A DNA stretch of 64,000 nt from a virus, in IMG/VR virus record IMGVR_UViG_3300009104_002192, positions 78,349 through 142,348 of that record, one strand, 5' to 3'. Below are positions 3,001 through 59,551 of this stretch, one piece after another. The notes below the pieces were generated by a model. The model did not search any database. It was not told the DNA's origin and saw nothing but the letters and a program-made list of their open reading frames with translations. The first letter of the stretch is position 1. Every line of letters starts with the position of its first letter. The position numbers and the translations under genes are program-made.

Positions 3001-3639
3001 GCAGCTAGCACTGAACCCGGTCCTACTGGGTCTACAGGACCTACAGGCGCGGTGGGCATGGGCGGATCAGGGGGGACGACCCCAACTATTTCAACAAAAG
3101 GTATAGAGGCGTATGTCGGGAATAGCCTATGTTTTAACCCGTTCGAGTCTTCCGAACAATTTCATGTTAATAACTCTCTGGGGGAAACATTAAATTCTCT
3201 TCAAATTATAAATCACGGAGGTTTTATACCAGAGCCTTGCGAAATCGGATCGTACAAAGCTTATATAGTCAGTAGTGATTTAGATAGTTCTAGCGCTTGC
3301 TCTATTACAATTTATAAAAATGGGGTTTCTACAGGTATTACGAGTGTAGTAAACGGTTCCTCATACGCAGGCCAAACAGTTCATTTAATTAACGAAACGA
3401 GTGGCCAACCAAACAGTTTGAATTTATCGGCTGGAGATAAAATAACGGCCGTTTGTGTTTGTAGTGGAGTAGAGAACAGTAGAGGGGTTATCTTTAAACT
3501 TTCCGGAGTAACTTCAGTAGGCGTAGGTCCAACAGGCCCAGCCGGAGACGCAGGCGCAGGTGGAAATACTGGTCCCACAGGGGCTACTGGGAGTGTAAAT
3601 ACCAGTGATATTATAAAATATACCTTAATTTTTGGATAA
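31..3639 (+). CDS. Collagen-like tail fibre with cupredoxin-like domains
   Basis: Virion fibre protein of 1,202 residues. Gly-X-Thr/Gly-X-Pro collagen-type stretches (GPTGATG pattern) alternate with folded domains. Residues about 57-105 resemble a carbohydrate-binding motif (Y..xD.V.Y.G..Y..., ending YW). Three related beta domains lie at about 443-560, 674-794 and 855-960, each with a YTY-(Y/E)-F strand and an LYY(Y/W/E) strand. The third ends C-x2-H-x2-M like a blue-copper site; the first two lack the Cys and His. A different beta-rich head occupies about 1020-1170. The motif AAST-x-x-GP (PAST in one copy) recurs at collagen junctions. The start follows AAGGA ('aaggatataaaatg'). Collagen stretches usually trimerise fibres in phages. 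Assignment as a tail or side fibre, rather than head fibre, is inference. Confidence 0.8.
2416..2559 (+). repeat. 36-bp tandem repeat, four copies, in fibre gene
   Basis: Near-identical 36-bp units start at 2416, 2452, 2488 and 2524, each encoding a 12-residue collagen segment ([12 protein letters not shown] type). They are in frame and differ by only a few bases, so this stretch probably expands and contracts by recombination or slippage and so changes fibre length. Confidence 0.9.
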
Positions 3640-3643
3640 TTAT

Positions 3644-3967
3644 ATGATTGCTAATACTATAATTAATAATACAGCTACAGATATTCTAGAGACCCCTGTA
3701 GATTCAGCTATAACTGCGTATGCGGGGGTTGGGATGTTTTTCTGTAATGCCGGCGCAACTAATGAAAGTATTAATATTTATGCGGTCCCTAGTGGTCAAG
3801 TAGCTTCGGAAAATAACATGGTTATTAAAGACTTAACCGTGGTCACTGGAGACACATATGAATTTAGTGCTGAAAAATTTTTATTAAATAAGGGAGAAAG
3901 TCTTGTGGCCAGTGGCCAAAATGGGGGTTTAATATCAGCAACAATTACTTATACGGATATAACATAA
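3644..3967 (+). CDS. Small beta-rich virion protein
   Basis: About 107 residues. The reading frame is open from a TTG at 3632 inside the previous gene, but ATG 3644, just after the fibre stop codon, is the likelier start. The sequence has the pattern VPSG...N.MVIKDL...GDTYEF...[13 protein letters not shown], which I associate with small beta-sandwich structural proteins in marine phage structural clusters; no biochemical role is known to me. It lies in a same-strand run of fibre genes with 2-15 bp gaps, so it is probably a fibre- or tail-associated decoration protein. It has no signal peptide or membrane segment. Confidence 0.6.
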
Positions 3968-3968
3968 A

Positions 3969-4223
3969 ATGTCTAGCTTTATAAATAAACAAGGAAGCGA
4001 CTTAACAGGTCCAGTAGGATCTGCAGGACCCACCGGACCTACTGGCGCTGATGGTCAGTCGGGTAACACAGGAGCTGCTGGCTCCACAGGCGCTACGGGA
4101 GCTACGGGTGCTGATGGTGCGCAAGGCAATACAGGGGCTACTGGCGCTGATGGTGCGCAAGGAGAGACTGGTCCGGCTGGAGTAGCTGCTATCAGCGTAT
4201 TAGAATTACAAATTTTTAGTTAA
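3969..4223 (+). CDS. Short collagen-like protein
   Basis: 84 residues. A short N-terminal segment ([12 protein letters not shown]) is followed by roughly 20 Gly-X-Y triplets ([21 protein letters not shown]) and a short hydrophobic tail ending LELQIFS. A 36-bp DNA repeat encodes the two GADGAQG blocks. It has the composition of the large fibre but no folded domain. It could be a separate trimeric stalk, or a reservoir of repeats recombining with the large fibre gene. Its start is 1 bp after the previous stop codon. Confidence 0.7.
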
Positions 4224-4237
4224 AAGGAATTTAAACA

Positions 4238-4594
4238 ATGGCAACATTCACAAAACATAAATTAAGTGGATCTACAGATGGTAAAGGGGTCAAGGTGACA
4301 TCTAATCTCGCAGGCTCGGGAGTAACGGTACACACTGCCGTCACAGGGACTACAGATTTCGATGAAGTATGGTTGTATGCATATAATTCAGACTCTGCAA
4401 GCGTTAACGTAACTGTAGAGTTTGGAGGAACAACTTCTCCTGATAATACTATCACTCAGTCTGTTCCTGCTCAATCAGGACTATATTTATTGATACCGGG
4501 TTTTCCCTTGCAAAACTCAGCTGTAATTTCAGCTTATGCTAGCAAGCAAAACGTGGTTTCTTTATATGGTTTTGTTAATAGGATTGATCAGTAA
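4238..4594 (+). CDS. Conserved phage virion protein (GFVNRI family)
   Basis: 118 residues, with a good ribosome site (AAAAGGA, then ATG). The pattern STDGKGVKV...TVHTAV.GT..FDEVWLYAYN...VTVEFGGTT.PDNTI...GLYLLIPG...GFVNRI is one I recognise from short virion-associated proteins beside tail fibre genes in many phages; it has no accepted name. It is predicted beta-rich, with no transmembrane segment. Position between collagen-like genes and the giant adhesin supports a structural or receptor-binding accessory role. Exact function unknown. Confidence 0.65.
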   Translation: MATFTKHKLSGSTDGKGVKVTSNLAGSGVTVHTAVTGTTDFDEVWLYAYNSDSASVNVTVEFGGTTSPDNTITQSVPAQSGLYLLIPGFPLQNSAVISAYASKQNVVSLYGFVNRIDQ

Positions 4595-12277: not shown

Positions 12278-13357
12278 ATGAAGACTTTATGCGCGGCTTT
12301 AATCGTCAAGAACGAAAGTAATGTAATATCAAGGTGTTTGAGTAGCTTAAAACCTTATATAGATTACTGGCTTGTCTGCGACACCGGCTCTACAGACTCA
12401 ACCAAAGAGATGGTTCAGTCGGAGCTATCAGAAATCCCGGGAGAACTTCATGAAGTTCCTTGGGTTAATTTCGGTCACAACAGGAGCGAGCTTTTACGCT
12501 TAGCTAAGGGGAAAGCTGATTATTTATTATTGATAGACGCAGATGAAACCTTATCTGTCCACGATCCTGATTTTAAAAATAAGTTAAATTTAGATTCTTA
12601 TTTAATAAAATTTGAAGGAGATTTAGAATGGAGGCAAAAGAAGTTAGTTGGTAATCATATTAATTGGGAATACAAAGGCGTTACTCATGAATATATAACT
12701 TCTAATGAGGATAAAAATTTTCAACCGGCAGACTTTATCAGTTTAAATCATTTTTGCGACGGGGCAAGAAGGCCAGAAAAGTTCGAAGACGATATAAGTC
12801 TATTGAGAAAAGGCATAAAAGAAGAGCCTAAAAATTGTAGATATTGGTTTTATTTGGCTCAGACCCTTTTCGATCTAGGGAGATATAAAAAAGCTTTAAA
12901 AGCTTATGATTCGACAATTCAGCTATCGGAATGGGATGAAGAAATATATTATTCTTTATTTAAAAAAGCCTTATGTTTAAAACATCTTAAGGGCTTTTTT
13001 CCTTATGACCAATTCTTTAAAGCTCATCAATTTCGCCCTTCTAGGTTCGAAGCTATCCATGAGATAATCAGACATTTTAGGGAGAAGGGTTATTACGACA
13101 TGGCTTACTCTTTGTGCAAAAAGGAGATAAATAAGCCTGAAAGTCAAGATTTACTATTCATAGATAAGAGTTTAAACAACTACAAATTAAAAGACGAACT
13201 TGCCGTATGCTCATATTGGGTTGGAGAATTCGAAGAAAGCGGCAGATTAAATGAGGAATTGCTGAAAAACCCAAAAGTGCCAGAATTCGAAAAGAATCGA
13301 ATAAAAACGAACCAGCAGTTTGCTGAAAATAAAATCAAAGAAAAGTGTAATTACTAG
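12278..13357 (+). CDS. GT2 glycosyltransferase with TPR-like tail
   Basis: 359 residues. The N-terminal GT-A domain starts CAALIVKNESNVISRCLSSL and continues VCDTGSTDST and LLIDADE; this last is the DxD-type nucleotide-sugar/metal site. Residues from about 180 form TPR-like helices (YWFYLAQTLFDLGRYKKALKAY), an arrangement common in bacterial GT2 enzymes that glycosylate proteins. It would transfer a sugar from a nucleotide-sugar donor; donor and acceptor are unknown. The start ATG has no Shine-Dalgarno, but a TATAAT-like box lies 5 nt upstream. It sits between fibre genes and neck genes, so virion fibres are a plausible acceptor. A neck gene begins 3 bp after its stop. Confidence 0.8.
   Translation: MKTLCAALIVKNESNVISRCLSSLKPYIDYWLVCDTGSTDSTKEMVQSELSEIPGELHEVPWVNFGHNRSELLRLAKGKADYLLLIDADETLSVHDPDFKNKLNLDSYLIKFEGDLEWRQKKLVGNHINWEYKGVTHEYITSNEDKNFQPADFISLNHFCDGARRPEKFEDDISLLRKGIKEEPKNCRYWFYLAQTLFDLGRYKKALKAYDSTIQLSEWDEEIYYSLFKKALCLKHLKGFFPYDQFFKAHQFRPSRFEAIHEIIRHFREKGYYDMAYSLCKKEINKPESQDLLFIDKSLNNYKLKDELAVCSYWVGEFEESGRLNEELLKNPKVPEFEKNRIKTNQQFAENKIKEKCNY
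13345..13354 (+). promoter_or_regulatory. GTGTAATTAC element before neck genes
   Basis: The ten bases GTGTAATTAC lie 6 bp before the start of the first neck gene, within the end of the glycosyltransferase gene. The same ten bases occur upstream of the tape measure gene (19346-19355). One of a family of GTGTAA elements that could be phage late promoters; function untested. Confidence 0.3.
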
Positions 13358-19394: not shown

Positions 19395-22300
19395 ATGGCA
19401 GAATCCGCATCAGTAAGAGTAAGGGCAGAGTTAGACTCGCGCCCCGCAGAGAAAACCTTGGCCCGCTTTGTAAAAAAAGCGGAAAGTGTTGATGTAAGGC
19501 TGTCTTTAAAAGACAAGAACTTTACTCAGCCTCTCGGAAGAATTACCGGAGCCGCTGACGAGTTCAATAAATCTCTCGCTGCTTCGAACGCTCGCGTCGT
19601 AGCTTTCGCGGCCTCAGCTGGGTTAATGTATTCCGTCCAAAGAGCTTTAGTCTCTGTTACTAAATCAGCCATTGAGGTGGAGGCAGCCTTGGCTGATATC
19701 AATGTTATCCTTGGAGCTTCCTCTACAAATCTTGCTAAATTTGGAGATCAATTATTTAAAATAGCAGGGCAAACTGGTCAAGCTTTTCAAACAGTTACCG
19801 TGGCCGCTACTGAATTGGCTCGTCAGGGTTTATCGATGGAGGAAACCCTCAGGCGAACTAAAGATGCCATGATCCTGACTAGATTGGCCGGTATGGATGC
19901 GGCTTCAGCCGTAGACGCCTTAACGGCCTCAATCAACTCATTCAACAAAGCGGCTATCACGTCTACCGAAATAGTAAACAAAATGGCTACAGTCGATGCG
20001 GCCTTTGCGGTAAGTACAAACGATTTAGCGGACGCCTTAAAACGCGTAGGTAGTAGCGCTATTGACGCGGGAGTTAGTTTCGACCAGTTGATGGCTATGA
20101 CTACATCAGTGCAACAGATTACTGCTCGTGGTGGCGCAGTTATCGGTAACTCATTAAAGTCTATCTTCACCCGCATTCAAAGAACCGAGGTTTTGGATCA
20201 ACTGCAAATGTTGGGCGTGGCAGTAAGAGACATGAAAGGAAATACTTTACCAGCTATCCAAATCATGACCCAATTGGCTAAAACTATAGATAGTTTAAGC
20301 TCTGCTCAAAAAGCTAACATTACAGAATTAATGGGTGGCGTCTTCCAAATCAACGTAGTTAAAGCTGCTCTCGGTGATTTAGGTAAGGAATATTCTATTT
20401 ATCAAAACGCTTTAAAAGTTTCTACAGACGCAACCGACGCAGCGACTAAAAGAAATGAAAAGTTAAATGAAACTCTATCTGCTTTAGTAAATAAAACTTT
20501 CCAGAACGTTAAGAAAGCAGGCGCGGAGATCGGCAAATTAACTATCGCTCCAGCCTTGGAGGGGGTGCTAGATAAAGTAAATAGTGCGCTGGAAAAATTC
20601 GACCCGAAAGATTCAGAAAGCACTGGTAATAAAATTGCTCGAGGAATTCTGGAAGGCATAGGTAACTTCATTAAGGGACCCGGGTTAATTATTGGTTTAG
20701 CTGTCATAGGAAAACTTCTTCAACAATTCGGTAAATTTGCTAGCGACTCATTCAAAGAGTTCTTTAATATCAACGAAGCAGCGAAAAAAAGACTCGCTAT
20801 GGAGAAGTTTATTAATCAAGAACTATCTCACAACGAAGATTTAACACAAGCTATATTATCGGGAGAACTGAAAGTTGCTGATGCAGAAAAAATTATATTA
20901 AAAGGTTTAGAAGCTCGAGTTCTCCAGCAGGAGAAATTAAATAGGTTGATCAAGGAGGCTTCTTACGGGCTGAGCCGTAGAGGGGCTCATGCGGCATTGG
21001 TTGATCCGACAGAAGGAACTTACGCAGTTAAGCCTCCTAAAAGGTCTGGTGGCCATGTCCCGAATTTTTCTCAGATAGATATTCAGGCTTTAGTTAAAGA
21101 AGAGTTAACGTCTGCAAGCTATGCAAAATCAGGCACGAAAGCTGTAATTGATACCTTACCCGGTTTAGGACTCCATGTAAGAAATACCGAAGAGAGCATA
21201 TCTTACGCTCCGGGTATGAGGTCTCCTTTTATCAATCCCCCAATTGATAGTCCCGAAGGAAGAACTCATAGAGAAAAATCAATACGGCAGACTGGTATAG
21301 ACCCTTATCAATTATCATCGAGTTCAGGGCTTCCGGGTTTTGCCAAGGCTAACAAAAAAAAGCCTACCCCAAAAATAAAAGACTTAAGATCTAGTAATAA
21401 ATCAAAAGGCGTACTTCTCCCAGAGTTTGGCAGGAACGACACGAACTTAACGTTTCAATCAAGTCTAGCTCAAGTCTTTCCTGACACTAAGAGCCTAGAG
21501 AGGCAGAAATGGGCAGAAAAGGGCTTTACCGGTTTTAAGATGACTGGTGTAAAAGCTGCTAGATTAAGAGAAAAATCTTCAGCCTCTTTCGACACCTTGT
21601 TAGATTCCAATTTCGACCCCGCGATACAAGGCTTGGGTTCATCTATAGTAGGAACCAATAAGGGTAAACTTCCTAAAAAGACCACCGGAAAATTTTCTGA
21701 TTACTTTGATAAAAAAGCTTGGCCTCAAACTAAAGGTCGAATCTTCGAAGCGGCTTTAAATTATGTTGCAGTTAACATGTCTGCAAAAGCTCAAATGAAC
21801 AACAGGCTTGCAGAGATTAAAAATCTTACTGGAGGAGAAACTTGGGATTTCCCAGATATAAAAAATCAATTGGCGTCTTTATATAAGATTCAGCCGGCGG
21901 GGAACTGGGACGCTAAGTCGAACATTGACCAAGGGACTCAAGCCTCTATTATCAAGAAAACTTTGAATACTAAATATCAAGGTAAAACTATTCCAAATAA
22001 ATCTGCCGGATCTATTCCTAACTTCAGCCTAGGCCAAAAAGTTATGGGCATAAATACTATTCAGGCAAAAAACGCGATAGAAAGATTTAGATCTGGAGAA
22101 ATTTCGCAAGCGCAAGGATTAGTTACTCAGATTAATTCTTCCAGAAGTTTATCTTCAGCAGAAAAGAGCACATTGAAAGAGGAGATCAATGCTATTAGAC
22201 GTCAAAAGAAAAACGCAAAGAATCCTAAAGGCCTAACTATCGATGGGACTAATTTAGGGAGCATGCTAGTTCCAAGAGTCGGCTCTTCTCAGGGAACCGG

Positions 22301-25300
22301 TTTAGCTAAGCCTAAAATAGATAAAGACAATACCTTGCTCCGTCAATATCTTTCGAAAAATTACCAAGCGAAAACTGGATTAAATTTTGACAAGCTCCCT
22401 GAAGAAGCGAAAAAGAAAGTCATAAGCTCAACGAAAGCTTCATTTCCTGTTTTGGCTCCTTCTCGAGGCAACAACGTCAACATTGTCGATGATGTAGCCA
22501 CCGCGATAGAAAAAGAAACTAGAAGCTTCGTAGCAAGCATGAAAGGCGGGAGTGAAGCCAAAAAAGCAAACGTACTAAACAACTTAAGCACTCATCAGAG
22601 TAGTATCAGCTCCGCTGCTGGAGCAGTATTTGAGTCAGGAATTAAATCAGCTTTTGATTTAGAAATTGGGAAAACAAATGATAGGTTCGATGTCTCGACC
22701 TCTGCAGGTCTTAAGGAGGCTTTTCCAATTGAAACCCCTTATGGAGAATTTAAAATAGATGATAATAGCCCATTGAGACAAGACATGGCCGCAAAGATTT
22801 TGAGGCAAAAAATACAAATGGGTATAGCTTCCGGGGGGCATGTGCCAAACTTCGCATCTCCCCAATCTTTGACAACGCCGCCTCCGCCGTACACACGTGA
22901 AGAGACCGAGAGATTAATCAAGCTCTGGACCAGCGGCAAAGCAAATCGTTTTGATCCAAACGATTTGTGGGAATCCATGCCTAGGAACAGAAGAGGCCCC
23001 GAGGTAGACCCAATTACGGGGTTACCTGTAAGCCTCAAAAGTCCTACTCACTCAGCCCGTTTGCAAAGGGGCTATCAGGGGAATCCCGCCTTTGGGTTTG
23101 GACTCAGCCCTTGGTCCGGGGGGGCTGTCGAACCAAGAGTAAATCCGAGAACGGGCTTGCCTTATGCTGGGGGTTTTATTCCTAGTTTTAGCAAAAAAGA
23201 TACAAACAGAATGAGAGAGTCTAAACAGGCGGGAGTGCCTTATTCTCAGACTTACCTCAGCTTCGTTGATACGTCGAAATACGCTGGCCCTGTGATAGGG
23301 AACAGAAAGGATGAACCAACCTACCAAGCCCTGATAAAAGCCGTTAGAAGCCATCCTGACCCCAAGAATGCAGGTATGGCAGCGGGTGGATACATCCCGA
23401 GTTTTGCTGATGCTGCAGATGCCCCCGCCCCTCTACCGATAAAGAAGATGAATCTAGATGATCTTGGTTCTGAACCTCTGAAAAGGGTTAAAACGCTAGA
23501 GTCTAAATTGAAAGGCTTTGTAGCGAGGTTAGAAAAAATGAACGAAACTACGGGCGGCTTAAGCCCAGAAGTAAATGAAGCTGTAGAAGAAGCAAAAGGA
23601 GCCCTTTCATTTGTTCAGAAGACTGGGAAAAAGTTAGGAGAGCTTGGTGGTAAAATTCAAGAGCTAGAAGATGAACTGAAGCCGTTGGAAACTGATCTTG
23701 ACGAAGCTAACCTGTCAATTCAGGGAAGCAATACTCATCTTGAGGGCTTACGCGGCGAGCTTGAACAATTTAAAGCCGAGTTGGGTCAAACGGAAGACGG
23801 AGTAACTCTCGCGAGAGAAGATTTGAAAGCATCTAATAATGCTATATCAAGCTTACCCAATCTGGAGGATGGGTATAAAAATTTAAAAACAAAGGAAGAG
23901 GAAAAGCTCCAAGAACTAAGAGCCGCAGAACAAGCTGCTGGAAAACAAGAAAGAAAAAATCTGGTTAATAAGAGAGCTGTGATCCAAGGGGACTTTGACG
24001 AAGAGGGAATGCGCCACGGTCAACCTGATAGAGTGGGGTACACAAAAAGCGTTTTAGGAGAATTAGGAGCAAACGCTGGCCAAGCAGGAGGTAGGAGTTC
24101 GATAAAGACCTTAACGGAGGGGGTTGGAGCTAGCAAGACGGGTCAACTAGATTTAAAGGCTCAAGATGCTCTTGCGATAACTTTACAAAAGCAAAGAAAC
24201 GCCGCAATCATGGGGCAACATGACGAAGCACAGAAGATAGAAGATGAATTCAGGCTTACTCATAAAATCTCAGAAAAACATACGCATACCCAAGATGCTT
24301 TAGATAAAGTTTTTCAGAAAAATTTAGACGCCGGCACAACCATAGGTAACAAGGCCGAGGAAGAAGCAGCCCTGTGGGATAAAACAACACAAGCCAAGAA
24401 GGCTGAGTATGAGACTGCCAAAGACAAGACAAAATTAGCTGAAGGTGAATATAAAGAAGCGAAGAGGCTGAAGGGCTTGCGCGGTAAAAGAGAAAAAGCT
24501 TTAGATAAAGCAACAAGAGCGGAAGAGAAAGCGGCTGATCAGGTAACATTGACTAATCGTAAGATATCAGAAGGAAATCAAGAGCGGGATAAGCAAAAAC
24601 GTAAACAAAAAGATATAAATAATAAAATTGATAAAGTCAACAAGGAGTTGGATGATGAGGTAAAAGCACAGGCGGCAAAAACAAAAGAAGTTGAGGAAGG
24701 CGTAGATAAGGCAAAAAAAGTTAACGATTCCACGGGCAAAGTTGAGAAAGGACTACAAAAAGAAGCTGAGGGTCGTAAAAATCAAAGCTTCGGAGCAGGA
24801 TCATACAATCCGTGGTCTCAGCAAGGGAAAAGATATAAATCTCTAAAGGTTGCTGCTGGTGGAGATACGGATGCACTTGCCGCTCTTGGACTGACTCAAG
24901 GGCAAGCTCAGGGTGAATTAGCTGGAGCTAAAGAACAAAGACAACAAGCCATACAAGGTAAAGCTATGTTGGCTTCAATGGCGTTGCCGATGGTAACGAG
25001 CATGGCTGCTCAACATTTTGAAGAAGGTACTGAAGAAGGCGCGCGCGGCAAGGCGGGGGCGGAGGCAATCGGACAGGCAGGCTCTATGGCTGCTATGGGT
25101 GCGATGTTTGGACCTTGGGGTGCAGCTGCAGGTGCCGTTGTCGGAGCAACAATGGGGATTATAGACGTTTTAGGCAAGTGGGAAGATAAAACTTATGAAT
25201 TTAATACCGCTGCGGAAACAGCAGAGGAGAAATTGACTAAATTCAATAACGCTTCACAAACTTATTTAAAGTCTCTTACTGAATTCAACGAAGTAATGAC

Positions 25301-28300: not shown

Positions 28301-31300
28301 CCAGTTGACAAAACGCTCAACGGCTGAGCAAGTCAATATGATGAGGGACCGTTATGCTGGAGAGATGAGACAGAGAGAAGGTAAAATGGGCGCTATAGTT
28401 ACTGGACTAGGCATAGGACCGGGCGCAAAGGATGAGGTGATGGACAAATTAAAGAAGGCGAGCTCGGTTGAAGAGGTGACAAAAATCATAAAAGACGCGG
28501 ATGGAGAAGTCTCAGATAAACAAAAAGTCACTCTAGAGCAACTTGAAGGCGAAATACAAGAACATAAAGCTCAGAAAAAAGTCTTAGAAGAAATTACGGC
28601 CATTTATAATCGGAAAAAGGCTACCGCTGCCGCCGCCGCGGCTGAAGAAGAAGAAAAACTGAAAGTAGAAAGAAAAGCTCTAGAAAAGGAAGCAAGCGGT
28701 AAGATCGGCCAAGCTCTAGAGCTAAAAACTCCCGAAGCGAAAAGAGCATTCAATAAAGAGATTAGAAATATGGATTGGAAAAAGCTTTCTGAGCTAAATA
28801 CATATTTCGATGAACAGGAAGCAGGCGTTTTACACGCACTGTATCCGGGCTCGAAGGACCTAGAGGAAGCTTTATCTCCTACAGGAGGCTTACTCGGAGA
28901 AGGGAGTGCGGCTAAGAGGAAAACAGTCAAAGAGATGATGGCGGAGAGAACAAGGCAAGCCGCAGGAAGAACTGCGAATTTATTTGGAGATAATATATTT
29001 AGTTACGATGCAGAACTTCAAAAGGCTGGCTTTAAGGAAAGATATACAAATCCAATGCTTCCCGGACAGAATAATGCTTTTAAAAATGCAAAAATAGATG
29101 ACCCGTTTCAAATCCGCGCTGGAGCAGAAGTCACTTTCATGGATGACAAGGGTATTATAGAAAGCATTAGAGACAGATACGCTACAATTGGAGTTGGCGC
29201 TCAAGAGGCTAAAGCCCTTACGCAAGACGTGGCCAAGAAAGTTATTAAGGGGAGATTGGAAGCCTTCAAACTATTTAAAAATTCAGACTTAAGTTATAGT
29301 CAATATATAGTTAAGTTAGCGGGAGCTGAACTGGAAATGTTTAGAACAGATGCTGCATCCGGGAAAATAAGCCAAGCAGACTTAGCCGGTAAGTTAAAGG
29401 CTCAAGTAGATAAAGAGTTAGGAGAAGGGTTAAATGTCGATCATTTATTCGCTCAGTACTTGCACGCCAACATGTCCATGAATAAGAAAGACTATGATAA
29501 TTTAGCTCGCACAGTTGCAGAGTCAATGGCTTCAGGATTGATGGGACATAAAGGCGGTGGAATTCATTCTGCTCAATTAGTTCAAGATAAGAGTAAAAAA
29601 ATCGTAGACCGTGTGAAGGGCCTTGAATTAGGTAAAAGTCAAACAACGGCTTATACTAATGCTCTAGGAACATTCGAAACATTCCAAATGAATTTTAACC
29701 TAGGCTTAGGGGGCAGAGCACAGATGCTTGCTGCTTTAAATACGAAACTTCAATCTGCTCTTCAGAACACTAGGGGAACAGATGGCGAGATAGAAAAAGC
29801 TTACGATGAATACATAGAAGCTTTAACTACTGGCTTAAGGCCTCAAGATAAAATTATGGAACGTAAGGGCATAATGGATTCTACGGGTAAGAAGGTGGGG
29901 AGAGATCAGATAAAAACTTTAGATTCGAAAGTTGAAAGTATAGTAAACAAATACGAAGGTCAGGCCGCGGCTGGCCTGATAACAGAGGAAGGCCGGACAA
30001 CTCTACAAAATGCTGAAAGCATACTTGAGGCTACAAAGCTAGCTAACGAAAAAGACTTAGTCTCTACGGCCGCTATGACCACCGCAAGAAAGAATTTTTT
30101 AGACGCCTTACTTAAGCATGGATCAGATCAGACGGCGGTTGCTGATGCTTATAGGAATTACGCCGCGTCTGTGGCCGCTAAATTTAAACCGCAAGATTTA
30201 ACCGGTATTAGCGCACAAGTTACGGGGCAATTTGGTCAAGAAATGATGGGACCAGACGCAGGCACTTTTGGCGCAACCTCGCAAGCTATAACCGAGAAGT
30301 ATAATAAGGCGTTCGGGAAGGGACAAATATCGAAAGCAGCAGTACCAAGATTAGCAAAAGCCGAAGGGGCGCTCAAAGCTGCTGAAAGTAAAGCTAAAGC
30401 AGGAGTCTTAACTGCGGAACAATTAACGGGCGCTTATTTGAAATTTCTAAATACTCTCAATTCTGAAACTAATAAGCTTACTGAGGTTCAAGCGGCTTAT
30501 GAGAAATATACAGCGAGCTTAGGTGAGAAAAAGGGCGGGAAGGATTTGGTCACAAGCAGAACCAAAGTCCTTGAGGCTACGAGAAAAGGCGCCACAAGAG
30601 GCGGTCAAGCTGGATTAGTTGAGGAAGTCGAGTCAATAACCAAAGCCAATCAGAGACTTTTCAATAGAGGAAAATTAACCGGTGAAAGCTTAGAAGCTTT
30701 AAATAAAGCAGAAAGTCAGTATCATAATGCTCAAACCAATTGGGCAAACGGTTTATCGAGCACTGCGGCGTTGATGGCTGCAGCATCTAAGAATCTTCAA
30801 GCGGCTGTCGCTTCCGGCAACACTGGTAAAATAAAAAAAGCATTAAATGAATACATATCGAAATTAGATACAGAGCTTAAGCCTCAAGACTATCTTGAAA
30901 AAGCTGGTAAATTCATTCAAAAAAATCAAAACAAAGTAGGAAAAGGTAATAGAGAAGACTTCGCTAAGGATTTGAAAAAAACATCAGACAAGTACGAAAA
31001 GTTAGTTGATGAAGGGTTATTGACCGAGCAGGATGGTCAAATTATTTCTCAAGCTTTAGCAGACTTTGGCGCAGCTCAACAAAACTTCAAAGACGGTTTG
31101 ATTTCTCAATCGCAACTTTTGAAAAGTGCTGAAAATCAATTATCAAAAATCTCTGGCACAAGCGGAAGCGCTGAAATCAAAAAAGCCATGAAAGACTATA
31201 TGAAGGCGTCAACTGAGCCTATCGACGCCTTGTCCACCTTACAAGAGACCGGCAAAGATCTGGGGTCCTTGGGCGGGGGGATACTGGGTAAAGATCTGGG

Positions 31301-33605
31301 CAAATTCAAAAAGCAACTTCAAGGCATAAACCAGTCTTACAACGACTCGGTCAATGATGGTACCCTTACTAGACAAAACGCTAAGACTTTAAAGAAGGCA
31401 GCTAAAGACTTCGCTCTCTCTGAATATGAATTTGGTAAAGAGATGAGAGGTTCAGCGGATCACATTAGCGCAGCTAAATCTCTGCTTGAGAAGCATTTAA
31501 AAGTAGGCAGCAAAAAAACAGAGCAGTCTTTGAAAAAGTATTTAAAAGCTATTGATGGAGCCACGACCCCTTTAGATGTAAAGCAGTTTAATATAGGTCA
31601 AATCACAAAATTTGCAGAACAATTAACTAAGGCGGAAAGAAGAAAATTCCGCAGAAGCTTAAATGGAAAAGATTTCAAAGAGATAAGAGCTTCTAGGGAG
31701 CGTGGAGAAATATCAAGAAAGGAAGAGAAAGATATATCAAGTAAGCTGGGTGAAATCAAAAAGTTAGAAGCCGAGGGCGCCCCTCTTGAAGAAATAAGAA
31801 AAGCTTGGGACGATTACTACAAATTGAGAGGAAGGGCATATGATTCAGAGACTGAATTTATAAAAGGTCTGGCAAATTTTTATAGATTGAGCGGTCAAGG
31901 CGACATTAAAGAGGTAATGGACACCACTAGAAGGGGTATTGTGAATCAATCTAGAGGAGACTTCTCTGACCTTGATGAGGCCCAAGGGTTCAATCAGAAC
32001 TTAATCGACTATCAAAACGAATTAAGGACTATAGCTGCAGAAAGAGGAGCAACCGAAAACGATCTTAAAGATGCCCTTAAGGCTGAAGCCGAATATCAAA
32101 AAATGATTATTGACTTTAACAAAGGCAAGATCCAGTCTAAAGATAGGATAGCTGGTGCTGACGCAGCACTAAAGGCTAAGAGAGCAGCAGGGAAGGACAC
32201 GGCGGACGATTTCCTTGACGCTATGCAGGCAAGATTTTCATACGGCAAAAGAGAGGCGATTCAAGCTATACAAGACACTGTGTTAAATATGATCGATACT
32301 TTTGAAAGCGAATTAAATGACGCTTTATTTAACGCTATTTCGGGAGCTAAAGACGCCAAAGAAGCCTTTAAAGACATGGCTGACGCCATGCTTGATGAAA
32401 TAACTAGAATGAGTATAGAAGCGACCACTAGGGCTGTTATAGGAAGCTTAGGGATACCGGGTATGGCAAGGGGTGGATTGGTAACGGGTGGATCAGGAGT
32501 TAAAGATGATGTTCCTAGGCTGTTACAGGGGGGAGAATTCGTAATAAAGAAAGATTCTGTGGATAAGTTTGGACCGGGATTATTTAAAGCTCTAAATGAA
32601 CAAAATGTTGCCCAGTTTAGTGAGGGGGGGGTTGCTAGCTCTTTAGAGACCCCTTTGCAACGAAGTATGAGGAGTAAGGGTATTGGAATAGGGATGGAGA
32701 AGGTGGAGCATGTCCCTGATCCTCAAGGAGGACTAAGTAGTATTTCTGACACTAAAGGCGGAGGCTCTGGATTTACCTTGAGAAACGCTTTTGTTTTCGA
32801 TGACGATAAAAGGCCTACGGGTGGGGTTCTTGAAGTAGATTCAAGGTTAAGTAGAAGAGCTTTAATGGATCCAGATAACCCGAGGAATAAAGTAAGGATG
32901 GATAAAGAAAAAGCTTTGGTAGATTATACGGAACAAAGAATGCAAGACTGGGAAGATTATCAAGAGGCTATGCAAGATTATTATGATAAAAGAAAAAATC
33001 GGTGGAGAATGGCTGGGTGGAATATAGCTATGCAATTAGGCTTAAATTATATGAAAGGCGATAGGGGTGGTGCTAAAAATAAGGGAGAGGGTCGCTTGCA
33101 TGGAGCATGGGACTGGGTTAATGATAAAATAAATAAAAAGGACAATGAACCTTTCCCGGGTGGACAACAGCCGCAAAGAAGAGCTCAAGGAGGCTTTATT
33201 CCGTTTGCAAACGGAGGTCTTAGCTCTGATAAAATACCAGCTATGTTAACCGCTGGTGAATATATAATGAGTAGAGAGTCCGTAGAGAAATATGGTATCG
33301 ACACAATGCGTAAGTTAAACCAAGGACAAGTAGGGGGGTATGCTAAAGGAGGTTTAGTAAATGAAGGAGGTCCGTCTAGTAGTGGAGCGAGTGGTTTATC
33401 TGGCTCTGTAGCAGGAACTAATAACGTTAACATTACAGTAAATGTTGATAGCACGGGCAAGGCTGATAGTCAGTTATCTTCTCAGGGGAGTGCGGCTTCC
33501 GAATCCGAGCAATCTAAGAATATGGCTAGGCAAATAGAAACAGCAGTTGTGGGGGTGTTGTTACAACAGCAGAAACAAGGCGGTATGCTTAGAAAAACTA
33601 GGTAA
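19395..33605 (+). CDS. Giant tape measure protein with embedded modules
   Basis: 4,736 residues; it sets tail length and is threaded in the tube. Residues about 100-340 match the phage-tail tape-measure core (TELARQGLSMEETLRRTKDA, ITARGGAVIGNSLKSIFTRI). From 552 to 1337, five GG/AG-x-(I/V)-P-(N/S)-F motifs (552, 872, 1147, 1259, 1331) delimit modules; two contain PD-(D/E)XK-like residues (E785, D818/D821, D839-x-K841; E1080, D1099, E1118-x-K1120). Residues about 1360-1800 are coiled coil, then comes a Gly/Ala-rich hydrophobic segment (GAMFGPWGAAAGAVVGATMG). About 3480-4060 is a tandem repeat of period near 115 with a P-(Q/I/L)-D mark. The C-terminus has two tape-measure motifs (DDVPRLLQGGEFVI, DKIPAMLTAGEYIM). 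The gene meets the opposite-strand tail genes with an 8-bp overlap. Confidence 0.93.
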   Translation: MAESASVRVRAELDSRPAEKTLARFVKKAESVDVRLSLKDKNFTQPLGRITGAADEFNKSLAASNARVVAFAASAGLMYSVQRALVSVTKSAIEVEAALADINVILGASSTNLAKFGDQLFKIAGQTGQAFQTVTVAATELARQGLSMEETLRRTKDAMILTRLAGMDAASAVDALTASINSFNKAAITSTEIVNKMATVDAAFAVSTNDLADALKRVGSSAIDAGVSFDQLMAMTTSVQQITARGGAVIGNSLKSIFTRIQRTEVLDQLQMLGVAVRDMKGNTLPAIQIMTQLAKTIDSLSSAQKANITELMGGVFQINVVKAALGDLGKEYSIYQNALKVSTDATDAATKRNEKLNETLSALVNKTFQNVKKAGAEIGKLTIAPALEGVLDKVNSALEKFDPKDSESTGNKIARGILEGIGNFIKGPGLIIGLAVIGKLLQQFGKFASDSFKEFFNINEAAKKRLAMEKFINQELSHNEDLTQAILSGELKVADAEKIILKGLEARVLQQEKLNRLIKEASYGLSRRGAHAALVDPTEGTYAVKPPKRSGGHVPNFSQIDIQALVKEELTSASYAKSGTKAVIDTLPGLGLHVRNTEESISYAPGMRSPFINPPIDSPEGRTHREKSIRQTGIDPYQLSSSSGLPGFAKANKKKPTPKIKDLRSSNKSKGVLLPEFGRNDTNLTFQSSLAQVFPDTKSLERQKWAEKGFTGFKMTGVKAARLREKSSASFDTLLDSNFDPAIQGLGSSIVGTNKGKLPKKTTGKFSDYFDKKAWPQTKGRIFEAALNYVAVNMSAKAQMNNRLAEIKNLTGGETWDFPDIKNQLASLYKIQPAGNWDAKSNIDQGTQASIIKKTLNTKYQGKTIPNKSAGSIPNFSLGQKVMGINTIQAKNAIERFRSGEISQAQGLVTQINSSRSLSSAEKSTLKEEINAIRRQKKNAKNPKGLTIDGTNLGSMLVPRVGSSQGTGLAKPKIDKDNTLLRQYLSKNYQAKTGLNFDKLPEEAKKKVISSTKASFPVLAPSRGNNVNIVDDVATAIEKETRSFVASMKGGSEAKKANVLNNLSTHQSSISSAAGAVFESGIKSAFDLEIGKTNDRFDVSTSAGLKEAFPIETPYGEFKIDDNSPLRQDMAAKILRQKIQMGIASGGHVPNFASPQSLTTPPPPYTREETERLIKLWTSGKANRFDPNDLWESMPRNRRGPEVDPITGLPVSLKSPTHSARLQRGYQGNPAFGFGLSPWSGGAVEPRVNPRTGLPYAGGFIPSFSKKDTNRMRESKQAGVPYSQTYLSFVDTSKYAGPVIGNRKDEPTYQALIKAVRSHPDPKNAGMAAGGYIPSFADAADAPAPLPIKKMNLDDLGSEPLKRVKTLESKLKGFVARLEKMNETTGGLSPEVNEAVEEAKGALSFVQKTGKKLGELGGKIQELEDELKPLETDLDEANLSIQGSNTHLEGLRGELEQFKAELGQTEDGVTLAREDLKASNNAISSLPNLEDGYKNLKTKEEEKLQELRAAEQAAGKQERKNLVNKRAVIQGDFDEEGMRHGQPDRVGYTKSVLGELGANAGQAGGRSSIKTLTEGVGASKTGQLDLKAQDALAITLQKQRNAAIMGQHDEAQKIEDEFRLTHKISEKHTHTQDALDKVFQKNLDAGTTIGNKAEEEAALWDKTTQAKKAEYETAKDKTKLAEGEYKEAKRLKGLRGKREKALDKATRAEEKAADQVTLTNRKISEGNQERDKQKRKQKDINNKIDKVNKELDDEVKAQAAKTKEVEEGVDKAKKVNDSTGKVEKGLQKEAEGRKNQSFGAGSYNPWSQQGKRYKSLKVAAGGDTDALAALGLTQGQAQGELAGAKEQRQQAIQGKAMLASMALPMVTSMAAQHFEEGTEEGARGKAGAEAIGQAGSMAAMGAMFGPWGAAAGAVVGATMGIIDVLGKWEDKTYEFNTAAETAEEKLTKFNNASQTYLKSLTEFNEVMTSTSGEIDGNKADKFRKNLSEALLSIPSEYRFQLSKAQGNVERIQEIFAEIQADLQRDANTRRAQADLATEIEERIPRGKGKMFKGKESDSDQKKVFEMIKSTLDMSRFYGEEGEKLGAKLRNASKKIASDFSGFKAVLKEAGADAKTLELLDDMLEGGASNITLLGDEFENFGSDAALASRAGDNLTSSILAYRRRMEAVKEEQDRWNSIMDESKERVKRLASVLLDRLKFIDNMRNQRAAHARGMAMTEIKGRQQVAQPFIDNIQKVDLGASVQRADMQNKQVNSLEKLNSSIKIGLIGTINDKFEKLTTSTERITENASEDQNLTNNELQKQNKTLTGYRDALIKAVTSASGGGDTFHEIAASMKEIIKKAEVTGSARAALESDLLAVVEKGNHDLALMSDAHKNELETQRLSAQYQKETAINTKQMAQLGTIGGMMAGPDFSKINKVFEDAALSSFRANSDQEGSRSSLNILDLLRNFAGTSGAALPASMRANAVEGVKSNLSTKVARIRSGMESTGQMTPELQEELDQLNNNLDEIAETKVAAQLKDVPTHLQTIADKISSLTDKTVNEASMEQAVAAALTSVMGGSSKHIVDPLVRIESILNFQRGINEIKQVQNNVADALKAQQQLAGNIETSMSEVGSMAIDLAKNVPDSILDATVGMNIKQIRGLIDNEGQGFTQDAEGLAKQKGALQKLMNVVIKLDGTITRGKVFDTDWGLNSPDLVAEREDAKIIGGNTSAISRTGQGSMLHKQIVDLKANQEKFESDTRSGKYDEAFNEGMNLTKISALKRHMYGAGPISDVIRITKEHLRMNKEFGFKGPGEGPRVDHQLIEKFINKLVTSSASLKGDEKLDFGAVWGLLREADQEWVNQKGPRYGMAFNQSDGGNLTNQKKVVNAALLALATYAENQKSGASIDHSGSWSDQSGRRKTVREEVRNQMNATMQGLQQRADDPLQTGRKHQVLPTFDQLTGEGGLLDKQLVKNQEVESAQAEMRRLMAQLTKRSTAEQVNMMRDRYAGEMRQREGKMGAIVTGLGIGPGAKDEVMDKLKKASSVEEVTKIIKDADGEVSDKQKVTLEQLEGEIQEHKAQKKVLEEITAIYNRKKATAAAAAAEEEEKLKVERKALEKEASGKIGQALELKTPEAKRAFNKEIRNMDWKKLSELNTYFDEQEAGVLHALYPGSKDLEEALSPTGGLLGEGSAAKRKTVKEMMAERTRQAAGRTANLFGDNIFSYDAELQKAGFKERYTNPMLPGQNNAFKNAKIDDPFQIRAGAEVTFMDDKGIIESIRDRYATIGVGAQEAKALTQDVAKKVIKGRLEAFKLFKNSDLSYSQYIVKLAGAELEMFRTDAASGKISQADLAGKLKAQVDKELGEGLNVDHLFAQYLHANMSMNKKDYDNLARTVAESMASGLMGHKGGGIHSAQLVQDKSKKIVDRVKGLELGKSQTTAYTNALGTFETFQMNFNLGLGGRAQMLAALNTKLQSALQNTRGTDGEIEKAYDEYIEALTTGLRPQDKIMERKGIMDSTGKKVGRDQIKTLDSKVESIVNKYEGQAAAGLITEEGRTTLQNAESILEATKLANEKDLVSTAAMTTARKNFLDALLKHGSDQTAVADAYRNYAASVAAKFKPQDLTGISAQVTGQFGQEMMGPDAGTFGATSQAITEKYNKAFGKGQISKAAVPRLAKAEGALKAAESKAKAGVLTAEQLTGAYLKFLNTLNSETNKLTEVQAAYEKYTASLGEKKGGKDLVTSRTKVLEATRKGATRGGQAGLVEEVESITKANQRLFNRGKLTGESLEALNKAESQYHNAQTNWANGLSSTAALMAAASKNLQAAVASGNTGKIKKALNEYISKLDTELKPQDYLEKAGKFIQKNQNKVGKGNREDFAKDLKKTSDKYEKLVDEGLLTEQDGQIISQALADFGAAQQNFKDGLISQSQLLKSAENQLSKISGTSGSAEIKKAMKDYMKASTEPIDALSTLQETGKDLGSLGGGILGKDLGKFKKQLQGINQSYNDSVNDGTLTRQNAKTLKKAAKDFALSEYEFGKEMRGSADHISAAKSLLEKHLKVGSKKTEQSLKKYLKAIDGATTPLDVKQFNIGQITKFAEQLTKAERRKFRRSLNGKDFKEIRASRERGEISRKEEKDISSKLGEIKKLEAEGAPLEEIRKAWDDYYKLRGRAYDSETEFIKGLANFYRLSGQGDIKEVMDTTRRGIVNQSRGDFSDLDEAQGFNQNLIDYQNELRTIAAERGATENDLKDALKAEAEYQKMIIDFNKGKIQSKDRIAGADAALKAKRAAGKDTADDFLDAMQARFSYGKREAIQAIQDTVLNMIDTFESELNDALFNAISGAKDAKEAFKDMADAMLDEITRMSIEATTRAVIGSLGIPGMARGGLVTGGSGVKDDVPRLLQGGEFVIKKDSVDKFGPGLFKALNEQNVAQFSEGGVASSLETPLQRSMRSKGIGIGMEKVEHVPDPQGGLSSISDTKGGGSGFTLRNAFVFDDDKRPTGGVLEVDSRLSRRALMDPDNPRNKVRMDKEKALVDYTEQRMQDWEDYQEAMQDYYDKRKNRWRMAGWNIAMQLGLNYMKGDRGGAKNKGEGRLHGAWDWVNDKINKKDNEPFPGGQQPQRRAQGGFIPFANGGLSSDKIPAMLTAGEYIMSRESVEKYGIDTMRKLNQGQVGGYAKGGLVNEGGPSSSGASGLSGSVAGTNNVNITVNVDSTGKADSQLSSQGSAASESEQSKNMARQIETAVVGVLLQQQKQGGMLRKTR
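29700..31600 (+). repeat. About 115-residue tandem repeats in tape measure
   Basis: The mark P-(Q/I/L)-D recurs at residues 3483, 3599, 3830, 3942 and 4059, with a degenerate KDL copy near 3717, giving a period of 112-117 residues. Each unit also has a K-Y/E...G-x-(L/I)-(T/S) segment and a helical A-rich segment. Boundaries are approximate. The repeats are diverged at the DNA level, so they are old duplications. Confidence 0.6.
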
Positions 33606-44947: not shown

Positions 44948-46135
44948 TTAAACCCTCTTTAAGAAAATATAATTATCAATTTCTTTCCAGAAGTTCTTGT
45001 TATCAATAACTTTAAGGGGCTCTTTCCCTCCTACCATAGAGGTGGGAGCGGAGTAATTCGCTGCAGCTTCTCCATAAAAGACTTCTCCCTCTTTTATTAG
45101 AAACCTAGAACTTCTATAATAAAGATTATCTAGATCTTGAGACTTCAAAAAATCTAAATCTTTCTTACTGGGATTATCCCTAGAATGGATCTTCCCAAAA
45201 TCTAAATATTTAAATTTCAACTTTTCTAACTCCGCCCCTTGTTTCTCTGTCATAAGCAAACACTCTATGCCTGCTTTATAAACATCTTCTACGTACTGGA
45301 CGCTATCTGATTGCCCTAAGACATAGACAAATTGAGTAATATTATTTTTAAAATGTTTTAAAATATTTAAAGAAACAGGCTTTCTCGTAATGATATTACA
45401 TTTACAAGTGTGTAACTGCTGGACTAAAGTCTCCTCGTTAAACTCAAGATCCATTCTAACTATTAGAGAATCAACATTTAAAGCAGAAGCGTCTATAGCT
45501 CCACCTATAGGGACGAATTCTAAACTTTTATTGGTGTAATTTTTCCCAATAAAGAGGGTTTCGTACGGGAATTTGAAAGGAATACCAAGTAGCTCGCAGA
45601 CTTGTCTTGCTATTTGTTCGGGCTTAATTTTATTGATGCTTTTATCTTCCTCTTGCACGGAGTAAGAGAACTTGTTGTTTTCATTTTGGGGGAGAATTAA
45701 TCTTAAGTCTTCCCGTCTAGAAAAGAAAGGACCAGAGTTCTTAGGTGAAGAGTCCGAAAATAGAGATACTATTTTTTTGTTAAAATGAGAAGCTAAATGA
45801 TTAGTAAAACCATCTACGCCTAAATGAAGCATCGATTTATTTATAGTATAAGCTAATTGGTTCGGTGACATTAAGCCGCTGGCATCATGAATTTTTTCGT
45901 ATTTTTGTTCTTCTTGTTCTGGAGAAACTTTAAGTATAGCGATACCTTTCTCGTCCAACATGGGAAACAGTATGTCTAGGCACTCCTGCCAATAGTCATA
46001 ATGTCTGGAAGGGAAAATCCCGCTGGGATCAAATGAAATAAATTTTTCAATATTTAAAGGGAAAAATTTTTCGTAAATAAAGGGCTTGTTTATTCTAAGT
46101 CCTGTATTTAGAGAATAACAATCAAGTAAATGCAT
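44948..46135 (-). CDS. GT9-like glycosyltransferase (heptosyltransferase-type)
   Basis: 395 residues. The stretch LAYTINKSMLHLGVDGFTNH followed by LASHFNKKIVSLF matches the nucleotide-sugar-binding C-lobe signature of GT9/ADP-heptose transferases (D/H-x-G..HLA...G.P.V.LF). The N-terminus is short for GT9 and lacks a clear acceptor lobe; instead a second alpha/beta region follows (about 215-330). It may therefore be a rearranged GT-B enzyme or a binding-only homologue. The acceptor could be LPS core of the host or the virion. It lies between a DUF1360-like membrane protein gene and the annealing-protein candidate. Confidence 0.6.
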   Translation of the reverse strand: MHLLDCYSLNTGLRINKPFIYEKFFPLNIEKFISFDPSGIFPSRHYDYWQECLDILFPMLDEKGIAILKVSPEQEEQKYEKIHDASGLMSPNQLAYTINKSMLHLGVDGFTNHLASHFNKKIVSLFSDSSPKNSGPFFSRREDLRLILPQNENNKFSYSVQEEDKSINKIKPEQIARQVCELLGIPFKFPYETLFIGKNYTNKSLEFVPIGGAIDASALNVDSLIVRMDLEFNEETLVQQLHTCKCNIITRKPVSLNILKHFKNNITQFVYVLGQSDSVQYVEDVYKAGIECLLMTEKQGAELEKLKFKYLDFGKIHSRDNPSKKDLDFLKSQDLDNLYYRSSRFLIKEGEVFYGEAAANYSAPTSMVGGKEPLKVIDNKNFWKEIDNYIFLKRV

Positions 46136-52870: not shown

Positions 52871-53880
52871 TGAGTAAAACAGGATTATTATTAGGAGAGG
52901 AGGTCGCAGGGGTAAATCAAATTTTACCTCACAAACATAAACTGGCTTGGGATTTATTTATTAAGGGGGTGGCTAATAATTGGTCCCCAGCAGAGATAAA
53001 TATGTCTACCGACATTGAGCAATGGAAAGGCGACGATCTCTTAAAAGATGAAAAGCTTTTAGTTAAAAGATGTTTGGGTTTTTTTGCAGGTACCGAGTCC
53101 TTGGTTGGCAATAACCTACTGCTTACAGTTAACAGATGGATTACAGACGCAGAGTGTAGACAATACATCCTTAGACAGGCTTACGAAGAGTCTTTGCATA
53201 ATTGGACCGTCGTTACTTGCTGTGATACTTACGGTTTAAAAATATCTGAAGTCTATGAGGCTTATTTGAACGTGCCCTCTATTAAAGCTAAGGACGACTT
53301 CTTAATGGAAATTACAACAGATACGAATAGGCAGGATTTTTCTACTAAAACCGTAGAAGGTAAACGAGAATTTCTTAGAAATCTAATTACTTACTATATC
53401 GTTTGCGAGGGCACGTTTTTCTTTAGCGGTTTTGCGATGTTACTTGCGTTAGGCAGACAGAATAAACTTCCCGGACTTTCTGACCAGATCAGATATACTC
53501 TTAGAGATGAGAGTTTACACATACAGTTTGGGACTTATTTAATAAATACAATCAAAGAACAATACCCATCAGTGTGGACAAAAAAATTTGAACAAGAAAC
53601 CACAGAGCATATAAAGAAAGCGGTTGAACTAGAGATAGCCTACGCTCATGATGTTCTGCCGAGAGGGATATTAGGCCTGAATGCTGAAATGTTTGTTGAT
53701 TACATGCAATATATAGGTAATAGGCGTTTAGAAGGTATTGGTATTGACTTTCGTTTCGATAGCGACAACAATCCATTTCCATGGCTTGCTGAAGTTGTAG
53801 ATATGGGAGCAATGACTAATTTTTTCGAAAGAAAAGTTAAAGATTATCAAAGCTCAGGAGTTTTAGAAGATGACTTCTAG
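52870..53880 (+). CDS. nrdB: Ribonucleotide reductase R2 subunit, class Ic-like
   Basis: 336 residues from ATG 52870 (TAATG overlap with nrdA). Supplies the radical initiator for NrdA. The metal ligands read E76 (AGTESL), E107 and H110 (EESLHN), E180 (CEGTFFFSG), E214 and H217 (DESLHI). The residue four after the first His, Tyr in class Ia, is Val114 (H-N-W-T-V). The first ligand is Glu rather than Asp. Val/Phe/Leu at that position with Glu is the pattern of class Ic Mn/Fe enzymes; the assignment is inferred from these residues. The length and helical layout are normal. The gene ends on a CTAG shared with the opposite-strand peptidase gene. Confidence 0.92.
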   Translation: MSKTGLLLGEEVAGVNQILPHKHKLAWDLFIKGVANNWSPAEINMSTDIEQWKGDDLLKDEKLLVKRCLGFFAGTESLVGNNLLLTVNRWITDAECRQYILRQAYEESLHNWTVVTCCDTYGLKISEVYEAYLNVPSIKAKDDFLMEITTDTNRQDFSTKTVEGKREFLRNLITYYIVCEGTFFFSGFAMLLALGRQNKLPGLSDQIRYTLRDESLHIQFGTYLINTIKEQYPSVWTKKFEQETTEHIKKAVELEIAYAHDVLPRGILGLNAEMFVDYMQYIGNRRLEGIGIDFRFDSDNNPFPWLAEVVDMGAMTNFFERKVKDYQSSGVLEDDF

Positions 53881-58801: not shown

Positions 58802-59114
58802 TCTAAATGATATGACAGGGGGCTGGGTAGCGGGCGACTTTAGTCCAACCATTATCGAAACCAAAGATTTTGAGGTTTCGGTTAAGCATTATAAGAAGGG
58901 AGAGTACCAAGAGAAGCACGTCCATAAAAAAGCGGACGAGTTATCTATTATTGTGCAAGGTTCAGCAAGGATGAATGGAGAAACTTATGAAAAAGATGAT
59001 ATTATTTTAATGGAGAAAGGAGAGGCTACAGATTTTTATCCTTTGGAAGACGGCACCATAACTTGCGTTATCAAGACCCCTTCTGTTGTAGGAGATAAAT
59101 ATCTTGTTGATTAA
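58788..59114 (+). CDS. Cupin-domain protein
   Basis: 108 residues. A single small beta barrel: VKHYKKGEYQEKHVHKKADE (cupin motif 1: H-x-H then E) and a later MEKGEATDFYPLEDGTI (motif 2 lacks a His; Asp/Tyr instead). Cupins here act as sugar isomerases or epimerases or as sensors; the small size suits either. It overlaps the end of the fusion gene by 14 bp, so the two are co-translated. Confidence 0.65.
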   Translation: MKKYNLNDMTGGWVAGDFSPTIIETKDFEVSVKHYKKGEYQEKHVHKKADELSIIVQGSARMNGETYEKDDIILMEKGEATDFYPLEDGTITCVIKTPSVVGDKYLVD

Positions 59115-59116
59115 AA

Positions 59117-59551
59117 ATGATTCTTATAGCACATAGAGGAAATACTTCTGGAGCTAAACCTCTTGTTGAAAACGATCCGGTATATATAAAACTAGCTCTC
59201 GAAGAAGGATTTAACGCAGAGGTAGACGTTTGGTTTATTAATGGTAATTATATTTTAGGTCATGACTCTCCTCAATATTTCGTTAAAGAATCTTTTTTAG
59301 AGGATGACAGACTATGGTGCCATGCTAAGAGCCCAGAAACTCTTAAGGCTATGGTCAAGAATAAAAAAATACACTGTTTTTGGCACCAGAAAGATGATGT
59401 GACATTAACTTCTAGAAATATTATTTGGACTTATCCCAAAAAAAAATTATTAAAAGGGGCAGCTTGCGTAATGCCAGAACTAGGTTACGAAGGCAACATC
59501 GAAGAATGTTGTGCTATATGTAGCGATTATATAAAGGACTATAAAAAATGA
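59117..59551 (+). CDS. GDPD-like TIM-barrel protein
   Basis: 144 residues. It begins MILIAHRGNTSG and continues FNAEVDVWFINGNYILGHDS, the HRG...E-x-D...H signature of the PLC-like phosphodiesterase/GDPD barrel. It is shorter than bacterial GDPDs (about 240), and the C-terminal half is reduced. It may cleave a phosphodiester on a lipid- or sugar-linked phosphate, fitting its place between cupin and dehydratase genes. Catalytic competence uncertain because of the short length. Confidence 0.6.
   Translation: MILIAHRGNTSGAKPLVENDPVYIKLALEEGFNAEVDVWFINGNYILGHDSPQYFVKESFLEDDRLWCHAKSPETLKAMVKNKKIHCFWHQKDDVTLTSRNIIWTYPKKKLLKGAACVMPELGYEGNIEECCAICSDYIKDYKK

Follow-up and report, generated by a model that had tools for sequence, protein, structure and literature searches.

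Nuclease-like modules exchanged at GGxIPNFA motifs in the tape measure proteins of uncultured tailed phages

Tape measure proteins (TMPs) are, to our knowledge, generally regarded as rulers bearing at most a cell-wall enzyme. A TMP of 4736 amino acids (aa) is encoded in a stretch of 64,000 nucleotides (nt) from the virus record IMGVR_UViG_3300009104_002192 (positions 78,349 to 142,348; the whole stretch is called the window in the following), and an earlier note on this DNA had proposed that two neighboring modules of the protein comprise the catalytic residues of PD-(D/E)XK nucleases. The question raised by the locus is whether a structural protein of the virion can carry an enzyme of this type. 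Altogether, it is considered fairly probable that both modules belong to a large, undescribed family of nuclease-like enzyme cassettes in TMPs, which are exchanged at conserved motifs and probably ejected together with the genome. In uncultured tailed phages, the members of this family are located between GGx(I/V)PNF(A) motifs, downstream of the N-terminal domain that is conserved among the TMPs.

The residues named for the two modules (E785, D821, D839 and K841 in module 1; E1080, D1099, E1118 and K1120 in module 2) are all present at the positions given. For module 1, however, the signature Asp is not D821, since the alignment of the family described below places the invariant Asp at D818 (W-D-F-P-D). 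The signature residues are intact in both copies. Compared to a shuffled-TMP control, in which the signature pattern was expected 0.21 times, two occurrences were observed (P=0.014, post hoc), and due to this modest value the pattern by itself is only suggestive. At the level of sequence comparison, the stronger evidence for the two modules is provided by a hidden Markov model (HMM), which was derived from 22 modules found in other phages, none of them from the window. This model gave precisely two matches in the 4736-aa TMP, with 36.4 bits for module 2 (aa 1066-1138, E 2.9e-10 for 1279 open reading frames, ORFs) and 18.5 bits for module 1 (aa 761-864, E 1e-4), while the iterated model scored 45.1 and 24.1 bits. 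Since each module is closest to different modules in other phages, a recent duplication within the window TMP was ruled out; what had been taken for two duplicates are instead two divergent members of the family, each with its own nearest relatives.

For the collection of relatives, IMG/VR was scanned with a DNA pattern of AGGx(I/V)PNFA, which resulted in 120 stretches, and two further patterns added more. Nearly all matches of the AGGx(I/V)PNFA pattern fall inside long ORFs. The N-terminal TMP region is common to 143 related TMPs, in which modules of about 70-600 aa occupy the intervals between the motifs. A protein-based search for relatives of the window returned only one contig, which was 100% identical. 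With the first HMM, about 85 further copies besides the two in the window were detected. Since its 22 seeds had been picked by the motif, conservation was scored on non-seed matches, and the 52 dereplicated ones showed G in 52/52, E in 50/52 (Asp in the other 2), D in 52/52, D/E in 50/51, K in 50/51 and K/Q in 51/51.

In total, the family comprises about 170 module copies in 165 TMP ORFs of uncultured phages. The 91 copies with less than 60% identity retained E in 87/89 (2 Asp), D in 90/90, D/E in 89/91, K in 89/91 and K/Q in 90/90; the retention of G, E, D, (D/E)xK and the K/Q located 14 residues past the K thus amounts to 97-100%, which is somewhat optimistic because the HMM search favors copies that keep the signature. 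The mean column identity of the alignment is about 15-17%, nearly all positions outside the signature being variable. Glu helix, Asp and (D/E)-x-K follow each other in this order and are nearly invariant among the homologues, which bears out the earlier note in this respect. Judged by its residues, the set E...D...(D/E)xK...K/Q corresponds to the one that PD-(D/E)XK-type nucleases use for metal binding and catalysis, and the modules form a large new TMP family with an enzyme-like set of invariant residues.

The connection of module and motif is close, as the motif was found in 165/165 ORFs with the module and the module in 93/125 ORFs of more than 1800 aa with the motif. By tblastn, the modules were absent from 50,697 named phages, where a single weak match concerned the linker. 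The module alignment gave 0 matches in 595 other genomes from two bacterial phyla, while the positive control G002, a metagenome-assembled genome of Flavobacteriaceae with the phage-like contig L253, was detected. Since the control worked, this result indicates that the module is phage cargo.

More remarkable than the residues themselves, and unseen by the earlier note, is the exchange of cassettes at the GGxIPNFA motifs. Among 707 pairs of TMPs with N-terminal parts of at least 60% identity, the modules were at most 30% identical in 518. In the pair L020 and L090, the identity of the proteins is 90-99% for aa 1-800, falls to 18-28% from the motif at 790 to that at 1044, and is back at mostly about 94% past about aa 1800. 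The DNA of these loci comprises a 96% identical block that stops at L020:7031, the final base of GGYIPNFA, is unalignable across the module and regains similarity at 7769, close to the next motif. With the reservation that the pairs are not independent and that the loci were selected for carrying the motif, 53% of 1645 identity-block ends over all pairs lay within 30 nt of a motif end compared to 3.6% at random (in 113/144 TMPs), and 27% of the block starts lay within 30 nt of a motif start compared to 3.8%. In the relatives, divergent modules are thus swapped as cassettes that are sharply delimited at the motifs, while their carrier is conserved, and on the sequence evidence the GGxIPNFA motif marks the edge of exchange. 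For the window phage, the nearest N-terminal region is only 62% identical and no close relative with another cassette was found, so that its exchange is inferred from the relatives.

Between the motifs, other enzyme-like cargo was observed as well. A GNAT acetyltransferase module inside a TMP (L247:3009-3536) scored above the Pfam cut-off, and GNAT was also found in L051. A class of P-loop modules, likewise sited between motifs, showed the Walker A motif in 17/17 members. Six TMPs (L175, L156, L218, L246, L196 and L234; aa about 300-840) comprise in the same kind of slot a second nuclease-like module, S-[IV]-D-G ... L-L-E-[VI]-K-[AS]-G, which has the canonical PD-(D/E)XK spacing. A comparison of profile A5 to profile A4 brought the ExK and the subsequent K into matching positions, without significance.

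Individual loci showed further cargo. P-loop modules with a Walker A of GPxGSGKT/S between GGxIPNF motifs were seen in L246:171-680, L016, L020, L071, L080 and L090. By eye, an ART-like module (L036:7882-8556, minus strand; LYRG, TTTSF, NEREV) and a kinase-like module (L041:2610-3212, plus strand; HGSN...DPG) were noticed, for both of which Pfam gives no support.

The predicted fold was derived from two AlphaFold models, one of aa 940-1150 of the window TMP (model 1; 57 sequences, predicted local distance difference test, pLDDT, 77.7; predicted template modelling score, pTM, 0.72) and one of the L021 module (model 2; 70 sequences, pLDDT 82.8, pTM 0.71). The N-terminal half of model 1 consists of a strand (955-962), a helix, a second strand (996-1001), helices and a long helix (1054-1086) containing E1080, and the C-terminal half of a two-residue strand past D1099, a short helix, a strand (1116-1119) with E1118 and a helix (1125-1145). 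Model 2 has the same order of elements, with three N-terminal strands. In both models the E lies in the long helix, the D opens a strand, the ExK is placed on the following strand and the K/Q in the helix thereafter, and this predicted local arrangement fits PD-(D/E)XK. The families Mrr_cat (PF04471), VRR_NUC (PF08774) and UPF0102 (PF02021) likewise comprise the G-x-x-F-E helix motif, the Asp, the (D/E)-x-K strand and the K/Q in the next helix, but differ from the TMP module, which has strands before the Glu helix and a helical stretch between D and (D/E)xK.

A number of results weigh against the reading as nuclease-like cassettes. The alpha-beta-beta-beta-alpha-beta topology of the PD-(D/E)XK core, which the earlier note had led one to expect, is found in neither model, since extra strands lie upstream of the Glu helix, only one short strand is present at the D and one strand at the ExK. 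The first and the last strand of the canonical core are missing in the models; the N-terminal strands may substitute for them, and the core may be circularly permuted. Foldseek against the PDB gave no credible match (best E 0.76 and 1.6, query-normalized template modelling score below 0.25 among the matches listed), and model 1 had no match in BFVD. Profile comparison by hhalign with VRR_NUC, UPF0102 and Mrr_cat resulted in P values of 0.12-0.21, none of them significant, while of three controls among known families two were significant (P 3e-4 and 7e-4) and the third was not (P 0.39). Searches of Pfam, PHROGs, NCBIfam, PADLOC and the PDB sequences yielded nothing consistent for the module, single weak matches at most. 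Due to the missing fold match and the missing significant profile link, membership in the PD-(D/E)XK superfamily is not claimed. Of the nuclease originally proposed, the nuclease-like enzyme module is favored by the conservation, while the PD-(D/E)XK fold and the profile link were not found. Besides the favorable bias in the retention values, it has to be considered that in L020 compared to L090 the helical middle of the TMP (aa about 1100-1800) diverges as much as the cassette, and that a large share of this middle differs in pairs of this kind, so that exchange and variability reach beyond the enzyme-like part, and that delivery of the module into the cell is inferred. Matches of the module to plant lectins among the PDB sequences (E 0.03-0.15) were rejected as chance, originating from a short F-K-G-T-V-F-E string.

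The missing fold match in PDB and BFVD, the strand order unlike PD-(D/E)XK and the missing profile link to known nucleases could also be explained by a different enzyme, i.e. a new alpha/beta fold using E, D, (D/E), K and K/Q for a phosphoesterase, nucleotide hydrolase or similar activity, with a convergent likeness to PD-(D/E)XK. This is regarded as unlikely, since the order and spacing of Glu helix, Asp, (D/E)xK strand and K/Q helix are those of the PD-(D/E)XK set and, in the second TMP module of this slot, D and ExK are separated by the short canonical distance. Still less likely is a non-catalytic hypervariable domain for contact with inner-membrane or periplasmic proteins of the host or with tail chaperones, in which the charged residues would form a structural salt-bridge core. 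TMPs do contact host envelope proteins at ejection, as is established for HK97, and the region is exchanged among near-identical phages like receptor-binding regions; however, the near-absolute conservation of D and (D/E)xK at less than 25% identity is characteristic of active sites, and the adjacent GNAT and P-loop cassettes are enzyme-like.

As the TMP is positioned in the tail lumen near the end of the DNA, the module could also target the DNA of the phage itself or take part in assembling the virion (end trimming, packaging clearance) instead of acting on the host. Such housekeeping would not predict the swapping of 20-30% identical versions between near-identical phages, and this explanation is considered very improbable. 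That the resemblance in the window arose by chance, the module being ordinary filler of the tape measure, is hardly credible: the post hoc significance of the pattern is modest, but the independent HMM matches, the conservation across the whole family and the confident globular model all contradict it. The evidence is best read as a nuclease-like enzyme module borne by a TMP.

For this nuclease-like module, metal-dependent nuclease chemistry appears probable. The TMP within the tail tube would be ejected ahead of or together with the DNA, the module would fold in the periplasm or cytoplasm, and the folded module could then cleave nucleic acid, possibly the chromosome or RNA of the host or rival elements residing there, and in this way help the take-over. 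Cassettes are traded among related phages with borders at the motifs, in the manner of polymorphic toxins, and the swapping may be driven by inhibitors of host or rivals or by shifting targets. Only tentatively, the picture can be extended to the TMP as a general, re-loadable enzyme carrier with GGxIPNFA connectors, whose commonest cassette, of a new or circularly permuted nuclease-type fold, might enter the host with the genome and diversify like a polymorphic toxin.

The assignment of the 4736-aa ORF as TMP is based on its match to PF10145 (aa 126-312, E 3e-27), i.e. an N-terminal PhageMin_Tail domain, which was also found in 4/4 relatives scanned whole. The ORF lies in a tail gene cluster with lambda-like tail J and I, Phage_tail_L and a tube-like protein as neighbors in the window. 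Motifs of the form GG/AG-x-(I/V)-P-(N/S)-F start at aa 552, 871, 1147, 1259 and 1331 (Table 1).

Table 1. Features of the window TMP (positions in the window)
Feature	Position	Strand	Basis
Tape measure protein, 4736 aa	19395..33605	+	ORF; PF10145 E 3e-27; PHROG tail length tape measure families
PhageMin_Tail domain, aa 126-312, conserved TMP backbone	19770..20330	+	PF10145; N-terminal region common to 143 related TMPs
GGHVPNF motif, aa 552-558, cassette border	21048..21068	+	sequence motif; border role known from relatives
Cassette 1, nuclease-like module (HMM match aa 761-864)	21297..22004	+	HMM
G781-R-I-F-E785, helix motif bearing signature Glu (module 1)	21735..21749	+	sequence, HMM alignment
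D818, signature Asp (module 1)	21846..21848	+	HMM alignment
D839-A-K841, (D/E)-x-K (module 1)	21909..21917	+	sequence, HMM alignment
K855, conserved K/Q 14 residues past motif Lys (module 1)	21957..21959	+	HMM alignment
AGSIPNF motif, aa 871-877, cassette border	22005..22025	+	sequence motif
Cassette 2, nuclease-like module (HMM match aa 1066-1138)	22212..22832	+	HMM; AlphaFold pLDDT 77.7, pTM 0.72
G1076-A-V-F-E1080 (module 2)	22620..22634	+	sequence
D1099, signature Asp (module 2)	22689..22691	+	sequence, HMM alignment
E1118-F-K1120, (D/E)-x-K (module 2)	22746..22754	+	sequence, HMM alignment
K1134, conserved K/Q (module 2)	22794..22796	+	HMM alignment
GGHVPNF(A) motif, aa 1147-1153, cassette border	22833..22853	+	sequence motif
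GGFIPSF motif, aa 1259-1265	23169..23189	+	sequence motif
GGYIPSF motif, aa 1331-1337	23385..23405	+	sequence motif

Between the last two motifs, window positions 23190-23384 (TMP aa 1266-1330) resemble the conserved linker A-x-x-R-E-x-x-A-G...P found past IPNF in many related TMPs. Positions 28692-32444 (TMP aa about 3100-4350) encode degenerate repeats of the protein, the period being about 115-116 aa. A TMP of 4736 aa would, if entirely alpha-helical, have a length of about 710 nm, pointing to an unusually long tail. Elsewhere in the window, the large and small subunits of ribonucleotide reductase and a RecA-like protein are encoded (50405-53880 and 60954-62051), as are glycosyltransferases, a HAD/nucleotidyl transferase fusion and a GDP-mannose dehydratase (12278-13357, 44948-46135 and 57419-60621), which are read as a surface-sugar set carried by the phage.

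If the favored reading is true and TMPs serve as the dock at which exchangeable enzymes are loaded, effectors for a first strike are delivered within a structural protein by a widespread group of uncultured phages. The middle part of many TMPs, for which annotation is usually lacking, would then become interpretable. The GGxIPNFA borders offer a simple handle for finding cassettes, and the idea is testable by ordinary protein assays. Literature searches for a nuclease module in tape measures or for the IPNFA motif gave nothing relevant, but as most subscription journals lie outside their coverage, this absence is no proof of novelty.

Among known systems, the TMPs with peptidoglycan hydrolases (mycobacteriophage TM4; SPbeta YomI) also have an enzyme domain within the tape measure, but these enzymes act on the cell wall and aid penetration, and are not nuclease-like cassettes. 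In cryoconite phages (PMC7468147), homologous variants, the tape measure included, interchange between near-identical phages; in the part of that report available, neither an enzyme cassette nor a border motif is mentioned for the flexible gene variants. The TMP-derived effectors Sle1 and Tme of contractile injection systems (PMC13277306) are tape-measure-related, tube-ejected carriers of diverse domains as well. They belong to bacterial nanomachines and carry their domains C-terminally, in contrast to the internal cassettes of the phage TMPs, and the word nuclease does not occur in that paper. The polyvalent proteins of phages and conjugative elements (PMC5512222) resemble the cassette-bearing TMPs as large injected phage proteins stringing together unrelated enzymes (ART, GNAT, DNases). 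Here, the carrier is a TMP, the nuclease-like family is new and the cassettes are bordered by GGxIPNFA; "tape" is not a word in the main text of Iyer et al. 2017 on these proteins (PMC5512222). In polymorphic toxin systems (PMC3482391), too, sharply bordered enzyme cassettes are exchanged on a carrier that is conserved, whereas the cassettes of the TMPs are internal instead of C-terminal and their carrier is a structural protein of the virion.

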